Part shown: piece by piece, positions 5,164 to 35,028 of the stretch
How positions within the stretch are numbered: position 1 is the stretch's first letter
How the letters are laid out: each line of letters starts with the position of its first letter
DNA from: an uncultured Kordiimonas sp.
Lineage (GTDB): Bacteria > Pseudomonadota > Alphaproteobacteria > Sphingomonadales > Kordiimonadaceae
Assembly (NCBI GenBank): GCA_947503625.1
Contig: CANNEK010000003.1
Span: 186,001 to 250,000, forward strand
Direction: 5' to 3'
Length of the DNA: 64,000 nt
The notes under the pieces: generated by a model
Databases searched by the model: none
Told to the model about the DNA's origin: nothing
What the model saw: only the letters and a program-made list of their open reading frames with translations
Program-made: the position numbers and the translations under genes

Positions 5164-6212
5164 CAGGATGTCTCCTCCGTCACGAACTGCTGCGGAAACT
5201 CCGGTGGGAAGTTGTTCAGCTGACGCCAAAGCTCAAACCCGACAGATACTTCATCCAAAAGGACCCAGCCACGCGCATTGGTTCCAACGCGTAATATGTT
5301 ATTGGATGGCCATCTCGGGCCTTCTTCAGACGGCTGCACCACAATACGGAATCTACCGTTCAGATCTGCCATGGGATCAACAAACACCACTTTGCCTGCA
5401 AACGTACCAATGGCAACAGAAGGCCAACCGCTAAACTGGATAACGGGCCAGCCCTCAAATTGCAGACGAACCGGCTTGCCGACCGTAACAAGGCTTGCAT
5501 CACGGCCATCAACATATATCTCGACAGCGCTTTCAATATTGTCCGGTACGAACTGCGCCAGCCTGTCACCCGCCTTTACGAACGTTGCAGTGCCACCTGC
5601 AGTCACTTTGGTGATCACACCAGCACGCGGCGCGAGAACAGCCTGACTGCCCTCCCGGGACAAGGCAAGTTCCGCCCGGTTAAGCTCGTCGGCAGCGCCC
5701 TGCATGCGCACCTCATACTCGGCGATCAGGATTTGAGCCTGTTCCATTTCAAGACGCGATACCAAACCGTCAGCAAACAGACTTTCCTTCCTGTCCGCGT
5801 CCAGTTGCGCAGTTCTCAGCGCAGTTCGAGCACTGGCAAGCCTTTCCTGCGCCAGGCTCATCTGAGTTTGAAGTCGCTCAACTAAACGCGGGTCGTTGTC
5901 AACAATGCGGGCGATCGGCTCACCAGCTTCAACGCGACTGCCTTCCCGCACAAACCATTCAGCAATTCGCCCCGGCACAAGAGCACTGATAGCTTGCTCA
6001 CGTTCGGCCGGGTTTAGCGCGACAATCCGTCCGCTGCCGGAAACCGTTTGCACCCACGGCACAAACGTAATGAAGACCAATGCGCCAATAACCGCGATTA
6101 CACATACCAATGCGCAAACCTTTATCGCCGATGGTACTTTTCCAACTTTTAGCGATGTCAGAAGCGAAAGCTGGTTTGCATCGTACGACTCTTCGAATGA
6201 ATAGGAATTCAT
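5163..6212 (-). CDS. HlyD-family periplasmic adaptor (membrane fusion protein)
   Basis: A 349-residue adaptor that bridges an inner-membrane exporter to a TolC channel. There is a single N-terminal membrane segment (about 30-52, VCALVCVIAVIGALVFITFV), then a biotinyl-lipoyl half (PGRIAEWFVREGSRVEAGEPIARI), an alpha-hairpin of about 100 residues (110-195), the second lipoyl half (LAPRAGVITKV) and a beta-barrel region. It overlaps the upstream ABC gene by four bases and the downstream TolC gene by one, so the three are almost certainly one translation-coupled unit. The cytoplasmic N-terminus of about 28 residues is typical of type 1 secretion adaptors rather than RND ones. Confidence 0.88.
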   Translation of the reverse strand: MNSYSFEESYDANQLSLLTSLKVGKVPSAIKVCALVCVIAVIGALVFITFVPWVQTVSGSGRIVALNPAEREQAISALVPGRIAEWFVREGSRVEAGEPIARIVDNDPRLVERLQTQMSLAQERLASARTALRTAQLDADRKESLFADGLVSRLEMEQAQILIAEYEVRMQGAADELNRAELALSREGSQAVLAPRAGVITKVTAGGTATFVKAGDRLAQFVPDNIESAVEIYVDGRDASLVTVGKPVRLQFEGWPVIQFSGWPSVAIGTFAGKVVFVDPMADLNGRFRIVVQPSEEGPRWPSNNILRVGTNARGWVLLDEVSVGFELWRQLNNFPPEFPQQFVTEETS

Positions 6213-7882
6213 GCTACTTCCTTCCGCGCGTCGTGGATCGTTGTTGCAAGACTTTCAATTGTTTTTATCTCATAATCCGGCAGGTCATTGGCGCGGCGCA
6301 TGACGATGGCTGTAACCGTATGATAGCTGCGCATCTCTTCAATTGCCGCCAGAATGAACTCCGGGGCGACAAGCTCAAAGACATCACTAAGCACAACCAC
6401 CCGCGGCGTATCAATAATTGCTGCCGCCAGCTTTAACCTTAAAAGTTCTTCCGTTGTCAGAGGCCAGCCGCTTGGGGCTATGACTGTTTCCAAACCGCGC
6501 GGCAGTTCACCCACTCTCTCAGTTAGCCCGACAACTTGGATGGCACGGAACACGTGGGCACGGTCTACCTCCGGATGGCCGTGCTGAACATACTCTCCAA
6601 GTTGCATCTGGGGCACTGTGGGGCGGTCAATAACCTTCACCTGCCCGTTCAGTGTCTGGTGATGCCAGTCTTTAACGTCCACACCGTCAACTTCCACCCG
6701 GCCCGATTGGGCCTGCACCTGGCCTTTCAGCAAACGTGTCAGGGAACGTCGCTCCAGCGGCGAGGCGTCAGGCAGACGAATGGAGGTGCCTTCCAGCGCG
6801 TCAAAATTCATTTCAACACTATGATCTCCGTCAACCAGCAGCGCGTTTTCAATATGCACCATGCCCCCACCCAGCGGTGTGCGCTCAGCACGCGGCGGCA
6901 AGCGAGACGGCATCGTACTGATCCGGCCCAGTTCTTCGACGGCTGCGCCAAGCTCGTAATATTCCTTCATATAGGTTGCGAGGATCACGAACCCGGCAAA
7001 AATCGTTGAGAGGATAAGCTCTGCGGCCACGAGCTGACCGAGCGACAACTGCTCGATGATAACCAGCCAGCCACCAAGACCAAGCAGGATCGCACTTGCA
7101 AGCGCATAGATAAGCAGCAGAACAATCAGTTGCTTGAAGGTCACCCGGAAGTAACCTTTCATCATGCTAATATGTTCTTCAATAAGGGTATTGGTCTTGC
7201 GGATCGCATCCTCACCGTTTGGACCCGCCTTGAAAAACTCGGAATTGTGAGACAGCCCTTCAATCCAGCCTGCGGCATCATATTTTGTCTCGCTCACCAG
7301 AAAAGCCTGCTCGGTGGCACGCCAACCCCAAAACCGCCATATGGCGAAAAGGCTTGCGATCAGTGTGGCGTTAAACAGCAAGAAAACGGGATGATAGAGA
7401 CTGGTGACTATAAAACCGATGCCTGCCTGAAAGAAAAAGGAAAACAAACCAACCAGAAGGTTTGGTACAGCTTTCTGGACGGTCATTATGTCGAAGTACC
7501 GGTTGATCAGGTCATCCCGACGAGCCTGATCGAAAAATGACGCTGGTGAGTTAACAATTTTCAGCGTTATCTCGGATGCCAGCCGGGCGAAAACCCGTCG
7601 CTGAAACAGTTCAAGCACATACTCCCGCGATGCGTAAAACACGCCCGAGAGGAACAACAGGCCAAACAGGGTAGCTGACAGCAAAATAACAGGCTGCAAC
7701 AAGGCTGTGTTGGCAACCTGGTCGATCAACATCTGAATCGAGATTGGAATAGCGAGAGTCAACAAACTGATAAAAGCGCTGAACAAAATAGCGAGCCGAT
7801 AGTAAGATGTTTCGGGGCCTAAAACTCGTCTGAACAGTCTGGTGAATTCTTCTTTATTTGGAAAGTGATTATCAAATGCCAT
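6209..7882 (-). CDS. ABC exporter with a catalytically dead ATPase domain
   Basis: A 557-residue half-size ABC exporter with an N-terminal six-helix transmembrane domain (about 28-310) and a C-terminal nucleotide-binding domain (about 335-545). By position the ATPase fold is recognisable, but every motif is gone. The Walker A place reads LPDASPLERRSL with no GKS/T. The Q-loop place reads VIDRP. The LSGGQ place reads SGWPLTTEE. Walker B reads VVVLSDVFE, with the catalytic Glu replaced by Val. The switch His is Met (AIVMRRAND). The frame is intact and coupled to the HlyD gene, so this is not simple gene decay. It may work as a scaffold or need another ATPase. It lacks the N-terminal C39 peptidase domain. 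Confidence 0.85.
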   Translation of the reverse strand: MAFDNHFPNKEEFTRLFRRVLGPETSYYRLAILFSAFISLLTLAIPISIQMLIDQVANTALLQPVILLSATLFGLLFLSGVFYASREYVLELFQRRVFARLASEITLKIVNSPASFFDQARRDDLINRYFDIMTVQKAVPNLLVGLFSFFFQAGIGFIVTSLYHPVFLLFNATLIASLFAIWRFWGWRATEQAFLVSETKYDAAGWIEGLSHNSEFFKAGPNGEDAIRKTNTLIEEHISMMKGYFRVTFKQLIVLLLIYALASAILLGLGGWLVIIEQLSLGQLVAAELILSTIFAGFVILATYMKEYYELGAAVEELGRISTMPSRLPPRAERTPLGGGMVHIENALLVDGDHSVEMNFDALEGTSIRLPDASPLERRSLTRLLKGQVQAQSGRVEVDGVDVKDWHHQTLNGQVKVIDRPTVPQMQLGEYVQHGHPEVDRAHVFRAIQVVGLTERVGELPRGLETVIAPSGWPLTTEELLRLKLAAAIIDTPRVVVLSDVFELVAPEFILAAIEEMRSYHTVTAIVMRRANDLPDYEIKTIESLATTIHDARKEVA

Positions 7883-8500
7883 GGATAACGTTTCAAACTT
7901 TCAATATGTACTTTAGTAGCCACAAGCTAGTCTCTTGTCTGTGACTTGTCTATCAAGCCGAGATGCAACACATGTTACATTTCGCACTCGGTTCACCGCC
8001 TAGATACGACTCAAATTTTTTCTTTCAAGTAAAATGTGTATCGATAGCTTTTGCCTATCATTGTTTTGATTTTTATCTGGCCACTGAATAGCTCGTTTTA
8101 TGCCGTCATTGGCACCCACAACACCCGCACAAACAGAGGCATCACTATGCTTACACACAGTTTACGAACCAAAGCTGCAGCAGATCTTTAAACTTTGGTT
8201 GCCCACGACGAGACGCACTTATTGTTTGTTCCTCGGGGTCTGCCTCCCCTCGCCTTAATTTGACTTAATTTCTACTCATAGTGGTCGTTGGAATACCAGA
8301 AGTTTTATGCTAGCTTCCGATTAACGCAGCGGGATGCTGAAAGCGGGCGATAGCGACGGGGTTTGTTGCTTCTGCCTTGCATGGCATCCACCCACACTCG
8401 CTTGCGCTTCGAATTGTTTCGAGTTTTGCGTTTCAAGTTCCCTGTTTCAGTACCAGATTTTCGTCTTGGCAATTTATTTGCTTTTTTGGAGGAAGCCTTG
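7883..8500. other. Long divergent intergenic region between ABC operon and repeat lipoprotein
   Basis: 618 bp with no convincing gene. It is AT-rich relative to its flanks (notably 7900-8110) and must hold both divergent promoters. Visible structure includes an imperfect dyad at 8043-8059 (GATAG-N7-CTATC) and a 14-codon reading frame at 8147-8191 that I do not call. From about 8330 a frame is open in phase with the lipoprotein, but it lacks a signal-peptide-compatible start until 8501. Confidence 0.5.
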
Positions 8501-11053
8501 ATGCTTGATTTCATCCGTATTCCCTTTTGGAAAACAATCATACTTTCCGCGGGCCTTTTTTTTCTGGCCGCTTGCAACCCCCTGGAGACCTCCAGTATTG
8601 CAAAGGCACAACCGTCACCTGAAGAGGTCCCCTCCGGGGGATTGATAGAGCCTGTCATATCGAAGGAGTATCCATGGCTACCTGGCGACCTTGATTTCGC
8701 CAGTCCGCCCCGACAAAGAGAAGCTGCAAGCCTTTCGATTGAAGTACCTCCAGGGGTCGACCTTGATAACCCGACAGCCGTTTTCAGTGCTGTATTTTCA
8801 GCCCTGCCAAAGGAAGTTCTGATCCGACCAAGCGAAAACTATCTCTATTGGCGCTTCAAAACAGACGAGAAAAACATCTGGGGCAATCTGCGTATTGGCA
8901 CCAGCAAACACGATACCGGAATAGTTCATATCGGCTATTACGAATACAACGAAAAAATGTCCGGACCCGCAGACGCCAATGTGCGTTATGCCGCGTTATC
9001 TGAAAAAGAAGGTGTCGTCAGCAAGGCCCTTGATCGCCTGCAATATGTTGTCGAACACAAGGGAAAAGAAATCTATTTCGCGTTAAACGACCTTGCTCAG
9101 GATCCGCCAGCCAGATTCAAGATCTCAGACAATGAGCGCTTCGTATTCAACACAGAAGACGAATCCGGTGTTGGCTTTCATCTGATGTTCGATGGCACCC
9201 ACGACAATTTCATGTTCATCGCCAATGAAGATGAAACGCCGCTTGAAAGCTTGATTCCAATTACAGAAAATCTTGTCGTCGATAGCGGCAGCGGTTTCGC
9301 TTTTTACCGCGATCGCAAAAACGAAGACCGCAAACTTCTGGTGGGTGTGTTCAGGCCTAACATCACAAAAAATACCTATTTCGATGGCCCTGCAGACCAA
9401 TTGGCAGATAACCAAATTCCGAATGTTTCTGCTTACAAAGGCTATCTGAACCGTGCGTATCCCTTCACCACAGGCGTTATAGACGAATATGGGTTCTATC
9501 TGGCCGAACCGGGCAACCGGATCGCTGTGGCACCTTATTACGCCTATAACAGTGCGAAAGAACTGGCAGGCATGCTGGACGTATGCGAGAGGCTTGAAAC
9601 CACAGCCGATATACTGGCCTGCATGATCCCTGACGGGATGCACAAGAAATTCGCTTCAACCAAAGACGACACTTCGGAAATCCATGGCGGTATTCACGGC
9701 AACGAAGCTGAAAAGGGCCTTGTCGGAGAGCAATGGATCAACAGCCTGATCCTGTCCGGAGACAAGGGTCTTGAAAGCGGCGAGATTTTGGCGTCAATCC
9801 ACGCAGGGGCCGTCACATGGCATTTGCCAAATCAAACCTTCATCCCTGATGGCAGCAAACATGCTGCAGCCATTACCTGGCACATAGGCGATACAACATT
9901 TGTGCCATCGGGCGCTGTGCACAATACCGGCACGACATGGCACAGGGAAGGCCAGACATTCATTCCTGCAGGCAGCAAACACGCAGCGGGGATAACATGG
10001 CACCTGCCTGACATCAGTTTCATACCGTCAGGCAGTCGCCACGCTGCTGCCATCACATGGCATATTGAAGCTTCAACCTTCATTCCGGCCGGCAGCCGGC
10101 ATGCCGCCGGCATCACCTGGCACATTCCGAATACCACCTTCATCCCGCGGGGCAGCAGACATGCGGCAGGTGTTACATGGCATATCCCGGGAACAACCTT
10201 TATACCGCCGGGCGGCGCACATGCGGCAGGTGTTACATGGCATATGCCGGGCCTGACCTTCATACCGCCGGGTTCACGTCATGCTGCGGGTGTTACCTGG
10301 CACGTGCCGGGCTTAACCTTTATCCCGCCGGGCGGCGCACATGCGGCTGGTGTTACATGGCATATGCCGGGCCTGACCTTCATACCGCCGGGCGGCAGGC
10401 ACGCGGCAGGTGTTACATGGCATATTCCGGGAACAACCTTCATCCCGCCGGGGGCCAGGCATGCTGCGGGCATTACATGGCACATACCGGGAGTAACCTT
10501 CATACCACCAGGAACCCGCCATGCAGCGGGCGTTACCTGGCACACACCGGGGCTTACATTTATCCCGCCGGGGGCCAGGCACGCTGCAGGTATAACGTGG
10601 CATATCCCGGGAACAACCTTCATCCCTGCAAGCGGCAGGCACGCCGCAGGTGTTACATGGCATATTCCGGGAACAACCTTCATCCCGCCGGGGGGCAAGC
10701 ACGCCGCGGGCATAACATGGCATGTTCCCGGTGCGACCTTCATCCCGCCAGGGTCCAAGCATGTTGCCGGCACCACCTGGCACGTTGCAGGCACAACCTT
10801 TGTGCCGCCGGGCCCCGTCCATGTCGTGGGCATGACGTGGCATACACCCGGAGTGTCTGATGTGCCGCCCGGCGCGGTCCACAACACAGGATCAACCTGG
10901 CACTATAAAGACCAGACCTTTATCCCGCCGGGCACCGTCCATAACACGGGTTCAACCTGGCATTATGACGGGCAAAGCTTCATTCCTGCGGGAACCCGCC
11001 ACAACACAGGTGCAAGCTGGCATGTCTCGGGCACCAGCTTCATACCGCGGTAA
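8501..11053 (+). CDS. Repeat-containing lipoprotein with 21 His/Trp 20-mer repeats
   Basis: An 850-residue protein of a family I do not recognise. The start at 8501 is set by a strong GGAGGA site 7 bp upstream and by the lipoprotein signal that follows: a hydrophobic run and lipobox LAAC, with Cys23 or so as the acylation site. Residues about 45-420 form a globular domain rich in beta and aromatic residues, without known motifs. Residues 434-850 are 21 tandem 20-residue units with consensus HAAGVTWHIPGTTFIPPGGR. His1, Thr6, Trp7 and His8 are essentially invariant. The protein should be anchored to a membrane by its lipid, most likely the outer membrane. It is divergent from the ABC-HlyD-TolC operon and convergent with rnpB. 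Metal or ligand binding by the paired His/Trp is an inference. The array could instead be a structural beta-solenoid. Confidence 0.85.
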   Translation: MLDFIRIPFWKTIILSAGLFFLAACNPLETSSIAKAQPSPEEVPSGGLIEPVISKEYPWLPGDLDFASPPRQREAASLSIEVPPGVDLDNPTAVFSAVFSALPKEVLIRPSENYLYWRFKTDEKNIWGNLRIGTSKHDTGIVHIGYYEYNEKMSGPADANVRYAALSEKEGVVSKALDRLQYVVEHKGKEIYFALNDLAQDPPARFKISDNERFVFNTEDESGVGFHLMFDGTHDNFMFIANEDETPLESLIPITENLVVDSGSGFAFYRDRKNEDRKLLVGVFRPNITKNTYFDGPADQLADNQIPNVSAYKGYLNRAYPFTTGVIDEYGFYLAEPGNRIAVAPYYAYNSAKELAGMLDVCERLETTADILACMIPDGMHKKFASTKDDTSEIHGGIHGNEAEKGLVGEQWINSLILSGDKGLESGEILASIHAGAVTWHLPNQTFIPDGSKHAAAITWHIGDTTFVPSGAVHNTGTTWHREGQTFIPAGSKHAAGITWHLPDISFIPSGSRHAAAITWHIEASTFIPAGSRHAAGITWHIPNTTFIPRGSRHAAGVTWHIPGTTFIPPGGAHAAGVTWHMPGLTFIPPGSRHAAGVTWHVPGLTFIPPGGAHAAGVTWHMPGLTFIPPGGRHAAGVTWHIPGTTFIPPGARHAAGITWHIPGVTFIPPGTRHAAGVTWHTPGLTFIPPGARHAAGITWHIPGTTFIPASGRHAAGVTWHIPGTTFIPPGGKHAAGITWHVPGATFIPPGSKHVAGTTWHVAGTTFVPPGPVHVVGMTWHTPGVSDVPPGAVHNTGSTWHYKDQTFIPPGTVHNTGSTWHYDGQSFIPAGTRHNTGASWHVSGTSFIPR
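9800..11050 (+). repeat. 60-bp in-frame tandem repeat array (21 units)
   Basis: Twenty full 60-bp units (9800-10999) and a final 17-codon unit (11000-11050) follow each other without any insertion or deletion. The most constant DNA core is TGGCAT/CAC (Trp-His), followed by CCGGG and TTCATCCCGCC. Inner units (about 6-15) have Ala-Ala after the first His. Units 3 and 19-21 have Asn-Thr instead, so the array grew from its inside. The units starting near 10220 and 10340 are nearly identical, which points to a recent 120-bp duplication. Confidence 0.97.
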
Positions 11054-11136
11054 AGGCAAAATCACTCTTAACGATCACCGCCCTTCGGGGCTGTGGTCCA
11101 CTCAAAAACAAAAACGCCCGGAAACGATTGGTAAAG

Positions 11137-11529
11137 CGGCAGATGGCGTGTAAGCCGGGTTCTGTTCCCGTGCCCAACCAAAGTCAGGCACAGGCGATGA
11201 CCATTCCTCTAGGCCTGCTGTTGCCAGCAGGCTCAAGCAACCGACCCGGACGGTGGCGCGAAAATCCGCCTGCCATTAAAGGCAACCATCCCTATTGGTC
11301 TTGCTCCCGGTGGGGTTTACCCTGCCATCTCTGTCACCAGAGACGCGGTGCGCTCTTACCGCACCCTTTCATCCTTACCTGTCAGACACGTCTGGTCAGG
11401 CGGTTTGCTTTCTGTGGCACTTTCCCTAAGGTCGCCCTCGCCGGCCGTTAACCGGCACCGTATTTCCGTGGAGCCCGGACTTTCCTCCCCCCTTCATAAG
11501 AAGAGCGGCGGTCATCCAGCCATCTGCCG
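11137..11529 (-). ncRNA. rnpB: RNase P RNA (class A)
   Basis: This is the catalytic RNA that trims 5' leaders of pre-tRNAs. The ends are defined by an 11-bp perfect P1 helix (CGGCAGATGGC at the 5' end pairing with GCCATCTGCCG at 11137-11147). Universally conserved blocks are visible on the plus strand as TGTAAGCCGGGTTCTGT (11149-11165), GGTGGGGTTTACCCTGCC (11310-11327) and GTGGAGCCCGGACTTTCCTC (11469-11488). Length of about 393 nt fits bacterial class A RNAs. The 3' end is followed on the minus strand by T-rich sequence (GTTTTTGTTTTTG). Confidence 0.96.
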
Positions 11530-20241: not shown

Positions 20242-20616
20242 ATGACCGACAGCGTAAAGTTAAGTGACCAGCAATATCAATTGATGCAAGCTCTTTGGCA
20301 TCTGGGAGAAGGGTCCGCGAAAGCTGTTCAAAGCCAGCTACCGCATCTAGGCCTGGCGCACACGACAATTGCAACAATCCTGACCCGGCTTGAGAAAAAG
20401 GGTGTGCTGACATCTCACACTGAAGGCCGGGAGCGGGTTTTTGTTCCCACGGTCAGCGAGGGAGCGGCGCGGCGATCAATGATCTCGTCACTCGTCGGGA
20501 CCCTTTTTAAGGGCGATGACCGTCAGTTGCTGGCGCATTTGGTCAAGGAAAGTGACCTTAAACAGAACGATCTGGACGAAATTCAAAAAATGCTTGCGGA
20601 GGCAAACAATGATTGA
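20242..20616 (+). CDS. BlaI/MecI/CopY-family repressor
   Basis: A 124-residue winged-helix repressor (MTDSVKLSDQQYQLMQALWHLGEGSAKAV, then TTIATILTRLEKKGVLTSHTEGRERVFVP) with a helical dimerisation tail (about 80-120). In the Bla/Mec system this type of repressor is removed when the partner membrane protease senses its signal. The partner is the next gene, overlapping by 8 bp. The two palindromes upstream make autoregulation likely. No beta-lactamase gene is nearby. Confidence 0.92.
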   Translation: MTDSVKLSDQQYQLMQALWHLGEGSAKAVQSQLPHLGLAHTTIATILTRLEKKGVLTSHTEGRERVFVPTVSEGAARRSMISSLVGTLFKGDDRQLLAHLVKESDLKQNDLDEIQKMLAEANND

Positions 20617-23359
20617 TCAGCTGATTATTGAATTACCCGTACTGGCGCTGTTTCTGAAGTTCATGATTGCAAGTACAGTTTTGTTGGGCGGCGTTTGGCT
20701 TCTGGAAAAAACCGGTGTCATCAACACACCTGATATGTCTGAAACTGCATGGAAGCTGGCGATTGTTGCAAGTTTTGTCGCCCTACTGCCTGTGTCCTTT
20801 TCGCCGTCAAGCCTGACCATACCAATCACCCAGACCGTTGCTGCAGATTATGGCTTGCAGCGGTCAGGTGACTTCATTGGCGGTTTTGAAAGAACTGCGG
20901 CTCGTGCACCTCTGGCAGATTCAGGACAAACAGATGTACCTGTAGCAAGCGCCCCTGCGCCCACACCGGAGCCTGTGCCGAACCTCGCGAGAGAAGCAGC
21001 CCGCAATGCTGCACGTGATACTGCGCGCGAAACTGCAGTGGCTGGTAGTGAAACACCGCTGCCGGTCAGCGATGATTTCGCAGCACGCACACAACAGGCA
21101 GCACCAGACGAAGCCGTTCGCACACTGGTCCCGTCCAGCTCCCCGGCCTTTGCTGACGAACCAGCAGCCGTCTCGCTTACTGTGCAGCCGGAAACTCTCC
21201 TGATGGGGGCTTGGGCAGCGCTGGCGCTTATGGCGCTGGTTGCTCTCGCCCTTTCTTATGCCCGTGCCGTAAAAAGCCTGGGCAACCGCACCCGCGTACC
21301 CGCCGAGCATCACGCCAACCAGACGCTGCGAGCGCTTTGCGAGCAGGTCGATATCCGGCATGTGCCTTATTTGAGCCGGTCATCCGAGATCAACAGCCCG
21401 GTGTGCCTGCCACGCCGCGAGATCTGCCTGCCGGATTGGGCATTTGACGACATGGATGAAAAGGCGCTCGACAGCCTGATCGCGCACGAGCTTGCGCACA
21501 TGCTGCGGCATGACCCGGTAATGATGATTGCCACTCAGACACTTTGCAGAATTTTCTTTTTCCAGCCGCTGTTCGCGCTTGCGCGTCGCCGGCTTGAAGA
21601 CAGCGCAGAACTGGCAGCAGACCAGTGGGCCGCTACACACCTATCGACGGCAAAAGCCGTCGCAAGCGCACTCTATACATGCGCACAAAAAATAACCGAG
21701 AAACGACAGATACAATGGGGATTGGCCATGGCCGGTGACAAATCGATACTAAAGCAACGCGTTGAACGCCTTTTGAAGGCGGACGGCGCATCATTCAATA
21801 CGACAGGGCGCTTGAAACGCGGTGGCCTGGCAGCAGCCTTGCTGATTGCCGTGCTCAGCTTGCCAAGTGTCGAATTTGCCACCGCCATGACCGCTGGCCA
21901 CCCTCATGAGGAACCAACAGAAGAAGAAATCGAGCGCATGGTACGACGGCTTGACCGGGAACTCCCACGAATGGTTGCGCCACTTGAAAGGTCTTTGTCC
22001 CGCATGGCCGTGCCTATGGCGGAAGAAGCGGCAAGAGCGGGTAGAAGATTGGCGGCTGAAATTGCCGCAGATGCCGAAGTCATGGCCGCCATGGCGGAAA
22101 TGGCCGCGGCAGAGGCCGAGGCGGCAGCAGAGATAGCCGCAGCCGAAATGGAGATAGCCGCAGCCGAAATCGAAACGGCGTTCGCTGAAATCGACCACCC
22201 CAGAATTACCCATCATATCGAAACTGACGGAGACTATTATTCCGGCAACATGCAGTGGAATGACGACGACCTGACGGTCAAAATTCGCTGGGATGGTCAT
22301 TTCACCCTGAACGATGACGAGACGTCGATCAAATCAATGGATGAAGACAGCTTGCTCAACATCCGCACCGAGGAAAACGGGGAGCGCCGCCGCGTCCGCT
22401 TCACCAATGATGACGGCGACATGAAAACCACTTACTGGGTGGACGGTGACAAACAGCCACTGGGAGACGAAGGCGAAAGATGGCTTGCTGAAACCATCCA
22501 GAAAATGGTTCGCCACACACCGATCGACATTGAAAACCGGGTCGAGCGCTATCTGGAACAAGGCGGAACCAAGCTCGCGTTCAAGAAAATGGATGAACTC
22601 GAAACCGATTATGTTCGCCGAGTGTTCGCCACTGAACTCATCGACCAGACCGAGCTGAAAAAATCGGACGTCAAGAAGCTGGTGAAAGCTTTCAAAGCCG
22701 TCGATAGCGATTATGAAGTTCGCCTGTTGCTGAATGTAATGTTTGACGAAGACCTGATCACGAAAGACACACTGGAAGATGTGCTTGAGCTGACAAACCA
22801 GATCGACAGTGACTATGAGCTGCGGCTTGCACTGTCCCCGATCCTCAGCGAGTTTTCTTTCAATGACAAGCAGATGCAGCTTGTGCTGGAACAGGCACAG
22901 TCCATCGATAGCGACTATGAGCTGCGCCTGCTGCTGTCTGCAGCAATGAATTCAAGCCGCCTGTCCAAAGACAACCAGAAAAGCCTGATCAACGCGGCCA
23001 AGACGCTTGATAGCGATTATGAACTGCGCCTGGTCATCAGTCAGTTTGCGGATGATGCAGATATGGACGCAACCATCACCAGCGACCTGCTGGAAGCCAT
23101 AGGCTCAATCGGTGGCGATTATGAAAAACGCCTTGCCCTCGCGTCTGTTGTCGATGACGGCAAAATGGATGACAAAAACTGGATGCTTGCCATCGCCCTA
23201 GCCGAGAGCATTGACGGCGACTATGAAAAACGACTCGCCCTCGCGCAGATTCGCGATGATATGCCCAGTGACAGCAAGCTGGACAAAGCCTGGCGCAAAG
23301 CGGCAAAAACCGTCTCAGGCAAGCACGAGCGCGGCCTGCTGCTCGGCACAGAAGACTGA
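20609..23359 (+). CDS. BlaR1/MecR1-like M56 peptidase with long repeat tail
   Basis: A 916-residue membrane zinc protease and presumed sensor. It starts at the ATG overlapping the repressor gene by 8 bp. Membrane helices lie at about 12-32 and 45-65, a further one at about 192-212, and another just before the tail (about 405-425). The M56 zinc motif HELAH gives His293, Glu294 and His297, with the downstream Glu in LEDSAELAADQWA. Instead of a penicillin-binding sensor, the C-terminus has an Ala/Glu coil (about 480-530), an acidic beta region (535-640) and seven helical repeats with DYE(L/K)RL cores (about 664-910). So the signal is unlikely to be a beta-lactam bound covalently. Confidence 0.88.
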   Translation: MIDQLIIELPVLALFLKFMIASTVLLGGVWLLEKTGVINTPDMSETAWKLAIVASFVALLPVSFSPSSLTIPITQTVAADYGLQRSGDFIGGFERTAARAPLADSGQTDVPVASAPAPTPEPVPNLAREAARNAARDTARETAVAGSETPLPVSDDFAARTQQAAPDEAVRTLVPSSSPAFADEPAAVSLTVQPETLLMGAWAALALMALVALALSYARAVKSLGNRTRVPAEHHANQTLRALCEQVDIRHVPYLSRSSEINSPVCLPRREICLPDWAFDDMDEKALDSLIAHELAHMLRHDPVMMIATQTLCRIFFFQPLFALARRRLEDSAELAADQWAATHLSTAKAVASALYTCAQKITEKRQIQWGLAMAGDKSILKQRVERLLKADGASFNTTGRLKRGGLAAALLIAVLSLPSVEFATAMTAGHPHEEPTEEEIERMVRRLDRELPRMVAPLERSLSRMAVPMAEEAARAGRRLAAEIAADAEVMAAMAEMAAAEAEAAAEIAAAEMEIAAAEIETAFAEIDHPRITHHIETDGDYYSGNMQWNDDDLTVKIRWDGHFTLNDDETSIKSMDEDSLLNIRTEENGERRRVRFTNDDGDMKTTYWVDGDKQPLGDEGERWLAETIQKMVRHTPIDIENRVERYLEQGGTKLAFKKMDELETDYVRRVFATELIDQTELKKSDVKKLVKAFKAVDSDYEVRLLLNVMFDEDLITKDTLEDVLELTNQIDSDYELRLALSPILSEFSFNDKQMQLVLEQAQSIDSDYELRLLLSAAMNSSRLSKDNQKSLINAAKTLDSDYELRLVISQFADDADMDATITSDLLEAIGSIGGDYEKRLALASVVDDGKMDDKNWMLAIALAESIDGDYEKRLALAQIRDDMPSDSKLDKAWRKAAKTVSGKHERGLLLGTED
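22597..23260 (+). repeat. Seven SDYE-type helical protein repeats in the M56 protein
   Basis: Seven units of about 33-36 residues carry a D-S/G-D-Y-E-x-R-L core, starting near 22598, 22700, 22802, 22904, 23007, 23108 and 23209. Divergence at DNA level is high, so this is an old protein repeat, not a recent satellite. The pattern looks HEAT-like (alpha-alpha). Confidence 0.8.
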
Positions 23360-32532: not shown

Positions 32533-34272
32533 TCAGCCGTCAAACACGAAATCGGCCTGATCAACAATGCGCATGTCGTGGCGGTATTTCAATGTGCTGT
32601 TTGGCCACAGGGTATAGTTGCGGCCGTCTTCGCCCACGTACCAGCTTTTGCAACCGGATAACCAGACAGTGTCTTTGAGGTCCTGCTGGATTTGTGCATC
32701 GAACTGCTCTGTCACCTCCGGTTTCACATCCATGGTGGCAGCGCCCTGCTTCGATAACGCCTTTATGCAGCCCACGATATAAGCCACCTGCGCTTCGATC
32801 ATCAGGATGATCGAATTGTGGCCAAGCCCGCTGTTGGGGCCGGTGAGCAGCGCGAAATTCGGGAAGCCGGGCACCGAAACCGTGTTGTGGGCGCGCATGC
32901 CGCCTTGTGCGAAATAGTCCGCCATTTGCTGGCCGTCTGCGCCGACAATCTCCATGCCTTCCAGCAGGCTGAAAGGTTTGAAGCCGGTGGCGAAAATAAC
33001 CGTATCTGCCGTGTGTGCATTGCCTGCCGCGTCCACAAGGCCGCCTGCTGTCATGTGATCGACGGCGTCGGTCACAAAGGTGACATTGTCTTTTTGCAGC
33101 GCGGGGTAATAGTCATCAGACCCCAGAATGCGCTTGCAGCCCACCGGATAATCGGGCGTGAGTTTGGCGCGCAACGCCGGGTCCGGCACCTGTTCTTCCA
33201 GATGCTTCAGGCCCGCGCGCGTTGACAATGCCTGCAACAGCTTGTTCTGCCTGAATAAAGGGAACCTCAGTTCATAGGTCAGGTAGATTTTCAGCCGGTG
33301 CAGCAGGCGCAAAAAATCAAACCGGCGAAACCAGGCTTTGCTGCTTTCTGAGTACACCTCGTCCACGCGCGGCATCACCCAGTTGGGCGTGCGCTGGAAT
33401 ACGGTCAGGCTTTTGACTTTATCAACAATTTCCGGGATCAGTTGCACCGCGCTGGCGGCAGTGCCGATCACGGCGACATCGCGGCCTGCAAGGTCGTGGT
33501 CATGCCGCCAGCGGGCAGAATGGAACGCCGTGCCTTCAAACGTATCCATGCCTTCAATATCAGGGAAGCGCGGCACATGCAGCCCGCCGATGCCGTTGAT
33601 CAGAAAATCGACCGTTTCGGTGCGGCCATCCGCAAACGCAAGCTGCCAGCCCTTGTTGAACTTTGCGGCCTTGAGTTCTGCGCCGAACACTGTGTGCTCA
33701 TACAGGTCGTATTTGCGGGCGCAGTGTTTGACATAGTCCTGAATTTCGCCGCCGCCGGAGTAATGCTTGCTCCAGTTCGGGTTTGGCTCGAAGGAGTAAC
33801 AATAAAGGTGGGAGGGTACATCACAGGCAACACCCGGATAGGTGTTTTCCCGCCAGGTGCCACCCACTTCGTCGGCTTTTTCATAAATGGTGAAAGAGTG
33901 TATGCCTGCTTCCCGCAGCTTGATGGCCATGCAAAGCCCGGCAATCCCTGCCCCGATAATCGCGATGCTGGGTGTGCCGCCGGGCGCGCTGCGCGAATGG
34001 TTTATCGGCGTATCTGCCTGCTTGTTTTCTGGCGTGTTTTCAGGTGTGTCTTCTGGTGTGTCTTCAGGCGCACTTTTCTGGGCGGTTTTTGCCGCGCTGT
34101 TGTGCATGCTGTTTTTGGGCATGCCTGCTGGCGTGCCGTTTTGCGCGCTTTTTGACGTGTCTGCTGGCGTGCCGTTTTGCGCACTTTCAGGCGTGCTGTT
34201 TTGCCCGCTTTTTGACGTGTCCGCTGGCGTGCCGTTTTGCCCGCTGTTTTTCACTTTGGCAGTATCAGCCAT
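32533..34272 (-). CDS. Flavin-containing monooxygenase, Baeyer-Villiger type, with repeat-rich N-terminus
   Basis: A 579-residue FAD/NADPH oxygenase. The FAD motif IAIIGAGIAGLCMA is at about 103-116, the NADPH motif VAVIGTAASAVQL at about 270, and the type I Baeyer-Villiger fingerprint FEGTAFHSARW lies between them. Such enzymes insert oxygen into ketones, including cyclic and steroid ones. The first 100 residues are an unusual low-complexity tail of AQNGTPADTSKS and PEDTPENTPE units absent from relatives; a start within it is possible but no better ribosome site is seen. The downstream neighbour is the heme protein. Confidence 0.88.
   Translation of the reverse strand: MADTAKVKNSGQNGTPADTSKSGQNSTPESAQNGTPADTSKSAQNGTPAGMPKNSMHNSAAKTAQKSAPEDTPEDTPENTPENKQADTPINHSRSAPGGTPSIAIIGAGIAGLCMAIKLREAGIHSFTIYEKADEVGGTWRENTYPGVACDVPSHLYCYSFEPNPNWSKHYSGGGEIQDYVKHCARKYDLYEHTVFGAELKAAKFNKGWQLAFADGRTETVDFLINGIGGLHVPRFPDIEGMDTFEGTAFHSARWRHDHDLAGRDVAVIGTAASAVQLIPEIVDKVKSLTVFQRTPNWVMPRVDEVYSESSKAWFRRFDFLRLLHRLKIYLTYELRFPLFRQNKLLQALSTRAGLKHLEEQVPDPALRAKLTPDYPVGCKRILGSDDYYPALQKDNVTFVTDAVDHMTAGGLVDAAGNAHTADTVIFATGFKPFSLLEGMEIVGADGQQMADYFAQGGMRAHNTVSVPGFPNFALLTGPNSGLGHNSIILMIEAQVAYIVGCIKALSKQGAATMDVKPEVTEQFDAQIQQDLKDTVWLSGCKSWYVGEDGRNYTLWPNSTLKYRHDMRIVDQADFVFDG
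34018..34255 (-). repeat. Low-complexity repeats in the monooxygenase N-terminus
   Basis: Two repeat types: 12-15 bp units reading (plus strand) GGTGTGTCTTCTGG near 34041-34070, the same theme as the neighbouring heme gene, and a longer unit around GACGTGTCTGCTGGCGTG that occurs at about 34155 and 34215, with partial copies between and after. Confidence 0.78.
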
Positions 34273-34369
34273 AATCCCGCTCTCCCCGGTAACTGCGGAT
34301 TATGATTAATCGTTTGCATTAAAAAGTAAAGGTGCAGCTTTTTGTGGTGGCCTGCTCGGCTTCTGGCCA

Positions 34370-34819
34370 CTAGCCTTTAGTAAGGCGCACCAGAATTTTA
34401 TCAATGCTGTTCAGGAAGCTGGATTTATCCCGCGCGGTGAAACTGGGGTTAAAACCCCGGTCCGCTCCGGTTTCCCGCAACTGCGATTTCAGATCCCGCA
34501 TTGCCAGCGCCATGCCGATGTTTTCGGTGGTAAAAGCCCGGCCTGTTGGCCCCAGTGCCTCCGCGCCCTTTTCAAGCGAGCGGGACGCCAGCGGAATATC
34601 GCTGGTGATCACCAGATCTCCCCTGGCCGCATTTTCCACGATCCAGTCATCTGCCGCATCCGCGCCCTCGGGCACAACCTGCTTCGTGACCTTCGGACCG
34701 ACCGGCATACGAAGCCACTGGTTCGAGACCAGAAAAACCTCCAGGTCAAAACGGGCGGCAACTTTCAGAACTTCACCTTTCACCGGGCAGGCATCACCAT
34801 CGACAAAAATTCGGGTCAT
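34370..34819 (-). CDS. YaiI/YqxD (UPF0178/DUF188) family protein
   Basis: A 149-residue PIN-like protein. The family start MTRIFVDGDACPVKGEV and the block VVPEGADAADDWIVENAARGDLVITSDIPLA are unmistakable. The conserved Asp residues suggest a metal-dependent nuclease-like site, but no activity is established for the family. Full length. The ribosome site is weak. Confidence 0.93.
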   Translation of the reverse strand: MTRIFVDGDACPVKGEVLKVAARFDLEVFLVSNQWLRMPVGPKVTKQVVPEGADAADDWIVENAARGDLVITSDIPLASRSLEKGAEALGPTGRAFTTENIGMALAMRDLKSQLRETGADRGFNPSFTARDKSSFLNSIDKILVRLTKG

Positions 34820-34840
34820 GATTTATTTTCTCGTCACTTT

Positions 34841-34920
34841 TTCTACTTTTCCCGGGTTTTTTCTACTTTTTCCCGAAGTTTTTCCACTTTTTTGCCGGGT
34901 CTGGCTCACTTTTTCGCGCT
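34841..34920. repeat. Pyrimidine-rich 20-bp tandem repeats upstream of the oxoprolinase gene
   Basis: Three to four imperfect 20-bp units: TTCTACTTTT starts at 34841 and 34861, TTTCCACTTT at 34881, and a weaker copy follows at 34901. Each is followed by a CCCG/GCCGGG patch. They lie between the divergent YaiI-type gene and the oxoprolinase gene, where promoters should be. Confidence 0.7.
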
Positions 34921-35028
34921 TCTGGTTCCGCTTTTGGCAGCCCTTCTTCTGAAAAAGCGCATTGGCAAGCCGACTGCATCTCCTTACAACGGCCATAGAC
35001 TATGGCGAGCGACAGAGGATAGCAACCG

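Follow-up and report, generated by a model that had tools for sequence, protein, structure and literature searches.

A putative lipoprotein of an uncultured Kordiimonas joins a regular His/Trp repeat array to a candidate cognate domain

Several described systems share single features with the protein reported here. Choline- and glucan-binding repeats (Pfam CW_binding) are about 20 residues long, aromatic and hairpin-like; RTX proteins carry GGxGxDxUx nonapeptides, and WD40 repeats form 40-residue blades with GH and WD. Noursin is a copper-binding peptide with His-to-butyrine links, made by LanKC synthetases (PMC10206099).

The window analysed here is a stretch of 64,000 nucleotides of DNA from an uncultured Kordiimonas sp. 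Its positions 8501-11053 (+) translate into 850 amino acids and a stop codon. Although the frame stays open 5' as far as a TTG at 8363, the start was placed at the ATG at 8501 because a GGAGGA precedes it by 7 bases (Table 1). Signal peptide, lipobox and Cys, as read in the translation, mark the product as a probable bacterial lipoprotein. From residue 434 onwards, 21 units follow one another without gaps at spacings of exactly 20, the final unit being shortened to 17 residues, and the original prediction of a lipoprotein with perfect-period 20-residue repeats is confirmed.

Table 1. Features of the lipoprotein gene and its surroundings, in window coordinates.
Feature	Position	Strand	Basis
ABC exporter gene, degenerate nucleotide-binding half; neighbour outside the system	6209..7882	-	Pfam/NCBIfam and orthologue comparison
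Insertion between ABC exporter gene and rnpB, approximate	8068..11129		Comparison with L077, L078, L079
Shine-Dalgarno-like GGAGGA	8488..8493	+	7 bases 5' of ATG at 8501, by reading
Putative signal peptide with lipobox LAAC, residues 22-25, Cys25	8501..8575	+	Translation read by eye
N-terminal domain, residues 57-385, unnamed family	8669..9655	+	Alignments including an 11-member alignment
Linker, residues 386-433	9656..9799	+	Alignment with Phycisphaerae relative and unit positions
21 tandem 20-residue units, residues 434-850	9800..11050	+	Unit parsing
RNase P RNA (rnpB), neighbour	11135..11527	-	Rfam RF00010, 322 bits

The units follow the consensus HxxGxTWHxxGxTFIPPGxx. His1, Trp7, His8 and Pro16 are present in 21/21 and Thr6 in 20/21, with Ser in the remaining one; the 417 residues of the array hold 42 His and 21 Trp. 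These counts bear out the near-invariance of His1, Thr6, Trp7 and His8 and the His and Trp content that had been estimated beforehand. Each 20-mer breaks into half-units of a single element, first H-x4-T-W and then H-x4-T-F-IPPGxx, and thus consists of two copies with differing tails. H-x4-[ST] occurs in all 42 half-units and the aromatic residue is kept in 41/42. The 20-residue periodicity proposed earlier therefore stands, but the basic element is the half-unit H-x4-[ST], present twice in each 20-mer.

The 20 full units share a mean DNA identity of 63% (minimum 42%), and the codons for His1 and His8 are mixed, with CAT to CAC at 11 to 9. dN is below dS in 120/120 usable unit pairs, the other 70 of the 190 pairs being without a usable estimate. 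A recent tandem-duplication artefact at the DNA level is ruled out by this divergence, the mixed synonymous His codons and dN < dS; the units are old and kept by purifying selection.

Neither half of the protein belongs to a named family of the libraries searched, although systems that pair a repeat array with a cognate domain are, in general terms, already known. The full 850-residue protein matches no Pfam family at E ≤ 10 and no NCBIfam family at E ≤ 1, and has no credible PDB relative. Searched on its own, the window array again matched no named Pfam family at E ≤ 10, and the L023 array hit five unrelated Pfam families, all below cut-off. A match of the repeat protein to PHROG 14370 (22 bits, E 2e-4, no passing stretch) was discarded as a reflection of composition and period. 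The query matches its own antisense strand at 5.6e-10, and comparable E-values, from plasmids and PHROGs, were therefore dropped as reflecting these same properties. No creditable model thus came from Pfam, NCBIfam or PHROGs, in line with the view of the original prediction that the repeat lies in no known family. The anchor domain, described beforehand as being of unknown fold, likewise has no known family in Pfam, NCBIfam, PDB or PADLOC: nothing came near cut-off in Pfam (5 members searched) or in NCBIfam or PADLOC (8 members searched), and the PDB gave poor matches only (best 0.009). Among the entries listed, literature searches found no paper on WPPNH or on the sequence strings used, and searches with general terms gave no relevant result.

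Choline- and glucan-binding repeats are like the window repeat in their length of about 20 residues and in their aromatic residues, but CW_binding is matched in Pfam by neither protein nor array, and the distinction drawn earlier between the two holds. The window units differ from RTX and type I secretion substrates in lacking the nonapeptide, and have no Pfam match there. Pfam WD40 matches neither the window protein nor its array; only a weak, 20/40-periodic profile similarity to PDB entries is seen. Noursin-type lanthipeptides pair His with a Thr-derived residue, which offers an analogy only: noursin is a small LanKC-made peptide (PMC10206099), and the window domain matches no such family.

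The profile similarity to WD40 propellers extended to designed ones (Tako8, 6e-9) and some natural ones (PkwA, 5.8e-4), with a best value of 0.087 in the reversed control. Single Tako8 segments reach E-values of about 0.14-0.28, and the total is low because the segments sum through the common 20/40 periodicity; the similarity is a hint that the units form hairpins. AlphaFold returned a mean pLDDT of 39 for seven units (six aligned segments) and 43 for the full protein (one relative aligned), with about 52 over the array. At such confidence the models favour neither the stacked His/Trp solenoid that had been proposed nor disorder. Foldseek searches with the low-confidence models gave a best E of 0.09 and none at 0.001; recurring secretion-chaperone entries at E 0.15-1.4 were taken as noise, and the mean pLDDT values of 39 and 43 led us to set the list aside.

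With a DNA pattern spanning two successive units, the genome-contig collection gave a single record, the Phycisphaerae MAG OFTM112. Its unnamed protein of 1378 residues (L030:4729-8865(-)) shares 46-49% identity with the window protein in the N-terminal domain (49% over residues 54-391) and has 20 units of the window-type 20-residue repeat, every spacing being 20. When the units of the two proteins are counted together, His1, Trp7 and His8 are each present in 41/41; in the L030 array, each of the 111 usable pairs of 190 has dN < dS. In contrast to the window protein, where only the linker separates domain and repeats, the L030 protein has an extra region of >200 residues at this place; it is also without a visible lipobox, by reading, and ends in a Cys-rich tail. 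Tails like this one are found in many genomes of its class. In an 11-member tree, the L030 domain is the sister of the window domain (support 100/99). Since the nearest relative recovered belongs to another phylum, we infer that the window gene was probably acquired horizontally, by transfer between phyla.

The surroundings of the gene show an insertion. The lipoprotein gene is present in 1/19 genomes of the genus, being missing from 18 congeners, and in 1/29 genomes of the family, several of which are merely 76-83% complete. DNA similarity of congeners to the window ends near 8059-8067 and restarts at 11130-11135. An orthologue of the adjacent exporter was found in 7/19 genus genomes, and four loci were compared. 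In three of these (L077, L078, L079), gene order agrees with that of the window over the exporter, rnpB and the six genes that come next, which we labelled TetR, TPR, amidase, EamA, DnaJ-like and ketoacyl-synthase; there the exporter joins rnpB across a gap of 192-239 bp without the lipoprotein, so about 3 kb are inserted in the window. L080, the fourth, has its exporter elsewhere, without rnpB within the 12 kb retrieved. No transposase or integrase ORF was seen in the insertion in the window's ORF list.

The window exporter stands with HlyD- and TolC-like genes. Its nucleotide-binding half is without a recognisable Walker A motif, and the four congeneric orthologues (L077-L080) share the degenerate stretch. 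A role of the lipoprotein as type I secretion substrate of these ABC, HlyD and TolC genes was ruled out: the exporter adjoins rnpB in three congeners lacking the lipoprotein and is thus not specific to it. Phage or plasmid cargo was also rejected, with no phage match, no viral-contig match and four weak plasmid matches (best E 4e-4) that were discarded. Elsewhere in the window, a long ORF at 20516-23359, which we take to be M56/BlaR1-like, repeats segments of the SIDSDYELRLLLS type in the C-terminal half, as read by eye, and short tandem repeats of 12-36 bases cluster at 34023-34925.

The domain is known from 11 loci in 10 genomes, found by profile and sequence searches of overlapping genome draws. 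With the whole window protein, 2 of 385 genomes of the window's class matched, its own and, in the domain only, G266 (7.8e-32). The domain in G413 matched at 4.5e-105. A three-row profile found two domain loci in G634 (3.6e-52, 4.5e-39) among 298 genomes of G413's class, a search that scored two candidates per genome and may thus have missed arrays. Besides G413 and G634, 54/298 genomes matched only the Cys-rich tail of L030, and these rows, which fall at model positions from 949 upwards, placed at L030 residues from 1197 on, were excluded. The domain was further found in G413, G808, G774 and G754 among 246 genomes of G413's phylum (the latter three at 7.5e-67 or better), in G634, G1240, G1273 and G1285 among 151 of G634's order (the latter three at 1.2e-60 or better), in G266 only among 3 of its family, and, with the domain profile, in the window's own genome only among 299 of its phylum. 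The repeat profile likewise matched only the own genome among 385 of the class.

In all 11 members the match covers the greater part of some 330 residues and the invariant residues are kept, which number 25 in the alignment and include E112, R131, D220-E221-S222-G223, R277, N291, D295-G296 and D299-Q300. This degree of conservation appears to be more than expected for a passive anchor.

Arrays accompany the domain at these loci. ORFs were ranked at each locus by their density of H-x3-6-[ST]-x0-2-[WF], a pattern picked after viewing the sequences. Two of the 11 domains are fused to an array (window and L030), eight have a His-motif-rich gene directly upstream, and one case is less clear. In the window and L030 the fused domain protein ranks densest; in L007, L052, L053, L058, L059, L067 and L069 it is the immediate upstream neighbour of the domain gene on the same strand. 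L068 differs in that its densest ORF lies two genes upstream, with the adjacent gene second in rank. Partner and domain genes of these eight loci overlap or are separated by ≤105 bp. At the less clear locus, L060, two small His/Thr-rich ORFs lie nearby: the densest ORF of the locus, which another ORF separates from the domain gene on its upstream side, and a second that overlaps the domain gene at its end. Among the nine stand-alone domain proteins, four (L052, L053, L058, L068) have tails with 2-3 exact copies of the motif, and five (L007, L059, L060, L067, L069) have none there. The remaining neighbours vary from locus to locus in ORF lists read by eye.

A planctomycete repeat profile, A9, had matches at E ≤ 1e-3 in G634, G1240, G1273 and G1285 only among 151 genomes of G634's order, on contigs carrying domain genes. 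A9 was built from those four genomes and G808, so their recovery is expected and the unbiased part of the result is the 0/147 elsewhere. Two more genomes scored 0.005 and 0.007, each with an internal stop codon. The draws of 151 genomes used for domain and repeat agree in size and in the handles listed, and we take them to be identical.

The partners in L052, L053, L058, L067, L068 and L069 have WPxNH repeats, in which H-x4-[ST] and then an aromatic residue stand beside a window-type domain. Unlike the window array, these planctomycete arrays commonly have a 12-residue spacing and irregular linkers, and WPPN replaces FIPPG. In L067 and one of the L052 partners, dockerin-like stretches score above cut-off in Pfam; the other L052 partner, L053 and L069 give weaker dockerin or EF-hand matches, and L058 and L068 give none. 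In G266, two adjacent genes (L007:5598-7299) end in similar Cys-rich stretches; the second, beside the domain gene, has a mucin WxxW domain (PF13330, E 1.5e-20) and SHTHGA(A/N)SW repeats.

The shared element is the spacing within the motif. In the fused arrays of both proteins, 82/82 repeat His have Ser/Thr at +5 (shuffle mean 15.1), as do 143/190 His of nine planctomycete partners including L059 (shuffle 29.4). At these loci, 80 other ORFs have it for 89/892 His and show no peak. The next Trp is at +6 from His in the fused arrays and at +8 in the planctomycete partners (79/190, shuffle 7.9). A peak at His+4 is found instead in L007 (10/14), L059 (7/8) and L060 (14/16), and the L007 and L059 partners hold 0 exact copies of H-x4-[ST]-aromatic. 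Mapped on the domain tree, the +4/+5 split has no clear clustering (2 changes; 99/500 shuffles as low). From Trp to the next His, planctomycete arrays have +4 in 58/154, the others being scattered. The original prediction had centred on His-x6-Trp-His; its regular spacing stands, but the element conserved across bacteria is H-x4-[ST].

That a single domain and a single motif occur together across bacteria, in fused or separate genes, points to an undescribed two-part system and argues that both parts act on each other, although the pairing could instead reflect common export or anchoring. Judged from sequence, the reading we favour, at a probability of roughly 0.4, is that of a horizontally acquired, lipid-anchored surface protein in which an array and its cognate domain are fused, the motif being recognised at the surface. 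One half would be an array of the short motif H-x4-[ST]-(x0-2)-aromatic, and the other a domain recognising it, either as a receptor gripping the array or as an enzyme acting on it. Elsewhere the array usually forms a protein of its own, apparently secreted, from the gene just upstream of the domain gene; in the window protein, 42 H-x4-[ST] half-units, 41 with the aromatic residue, follow the domain on one chain and would be displayed multivalently. Recognition of such a multivalent array ranks above metal binding, a structural rod and covalent modification.

The original prediction had suggested a ladder of metal, haem or glycan sites; on that view, the His columns of a regularly folded array might bind Cu, Zn, Ni or haem on the cell surface, with the domain as anchor or loading factor. 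The 42 His at fixed spacing would suit such a role, as would the short strands predicted, at low confidence, at most TWH and many TF positions of the full model; at L058:12737-14456, two adjacent, near-alike secreted proteins, cupredoxin-like by reading, are encoded a few kb from the domain gene. However, Ser/Thr at +5 equals His in constancy in the fused arrays, no metal-linked gene recurs among the neighbours in ORF lists read by eye, and model confidence is too low for placing a ladder; a metal or haem array appears rather unlikely.

A structural rod or adhesin, with units forming repeated beta-hairpins or a beta-roll, conserved residues packing against each other and the domain as a base only, appears equally doubtful. 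Gly at unit position 11 in 30/41 units of the window and L030 is as in a hairpin turn, and the profile similarity to the Tako8 and PkwA propellers points the same way, but the Tako8 segments are weak singly and sum via the 20/40 periodicity, and Pfam WD40 is unmatched. The irregular planctomycete linkers, with their W-to-H spacing of +4 in 58/154, would be unusual in a tight solenoid, and a rod leaves the polar invariants of the domain unexplained.

Finally, the domain might be a new protein-modifying enzyme and the motif its multi-site substrate, His being linked in each motif to the Ser/Thr five residues on, or to Trp. The fixed His-Ser/Thr spacing with freer intervening residues and a substrate fused or adjacent to the domain would fit, and His-to-butyrine crosslinks have a precedent in noursin (PMC10206099). 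The noursin synthetases belong to a different family, however, the domain is unmatched to any Pfam or NCBIfam enzyme family, and the ORF lists, read by eye, show no cofactor or dehydratase gene that recurs. We consider it improbable that one surface chain would carry about 42 His-Ser/Thr (or His/Trp) linkages installed by such an enzyme, or metal-loaded sites, in a module common to two phyla. Neutral repeat expansion without function, which the presence of the gene in just 1/19 genus genomes might suggest, is very hard to reconcile with dN < dS in all usable unit pairs (window 120/190, L030 111/190) and with a 20-residue unit kept in two phyla.

From the pairing, any genome bearing the domain would be predicted to have an H-x4-[ST] or H-x3-[ST] array, fused to it or encoded just upstream. 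Should the array bind metal, it would be unusually regular for a metal array. Binding or modification of the motif by the domain would make the two halves a natural multivalent pair of tag and reader, or reveal a new protein modification, on bacterial surfaces.
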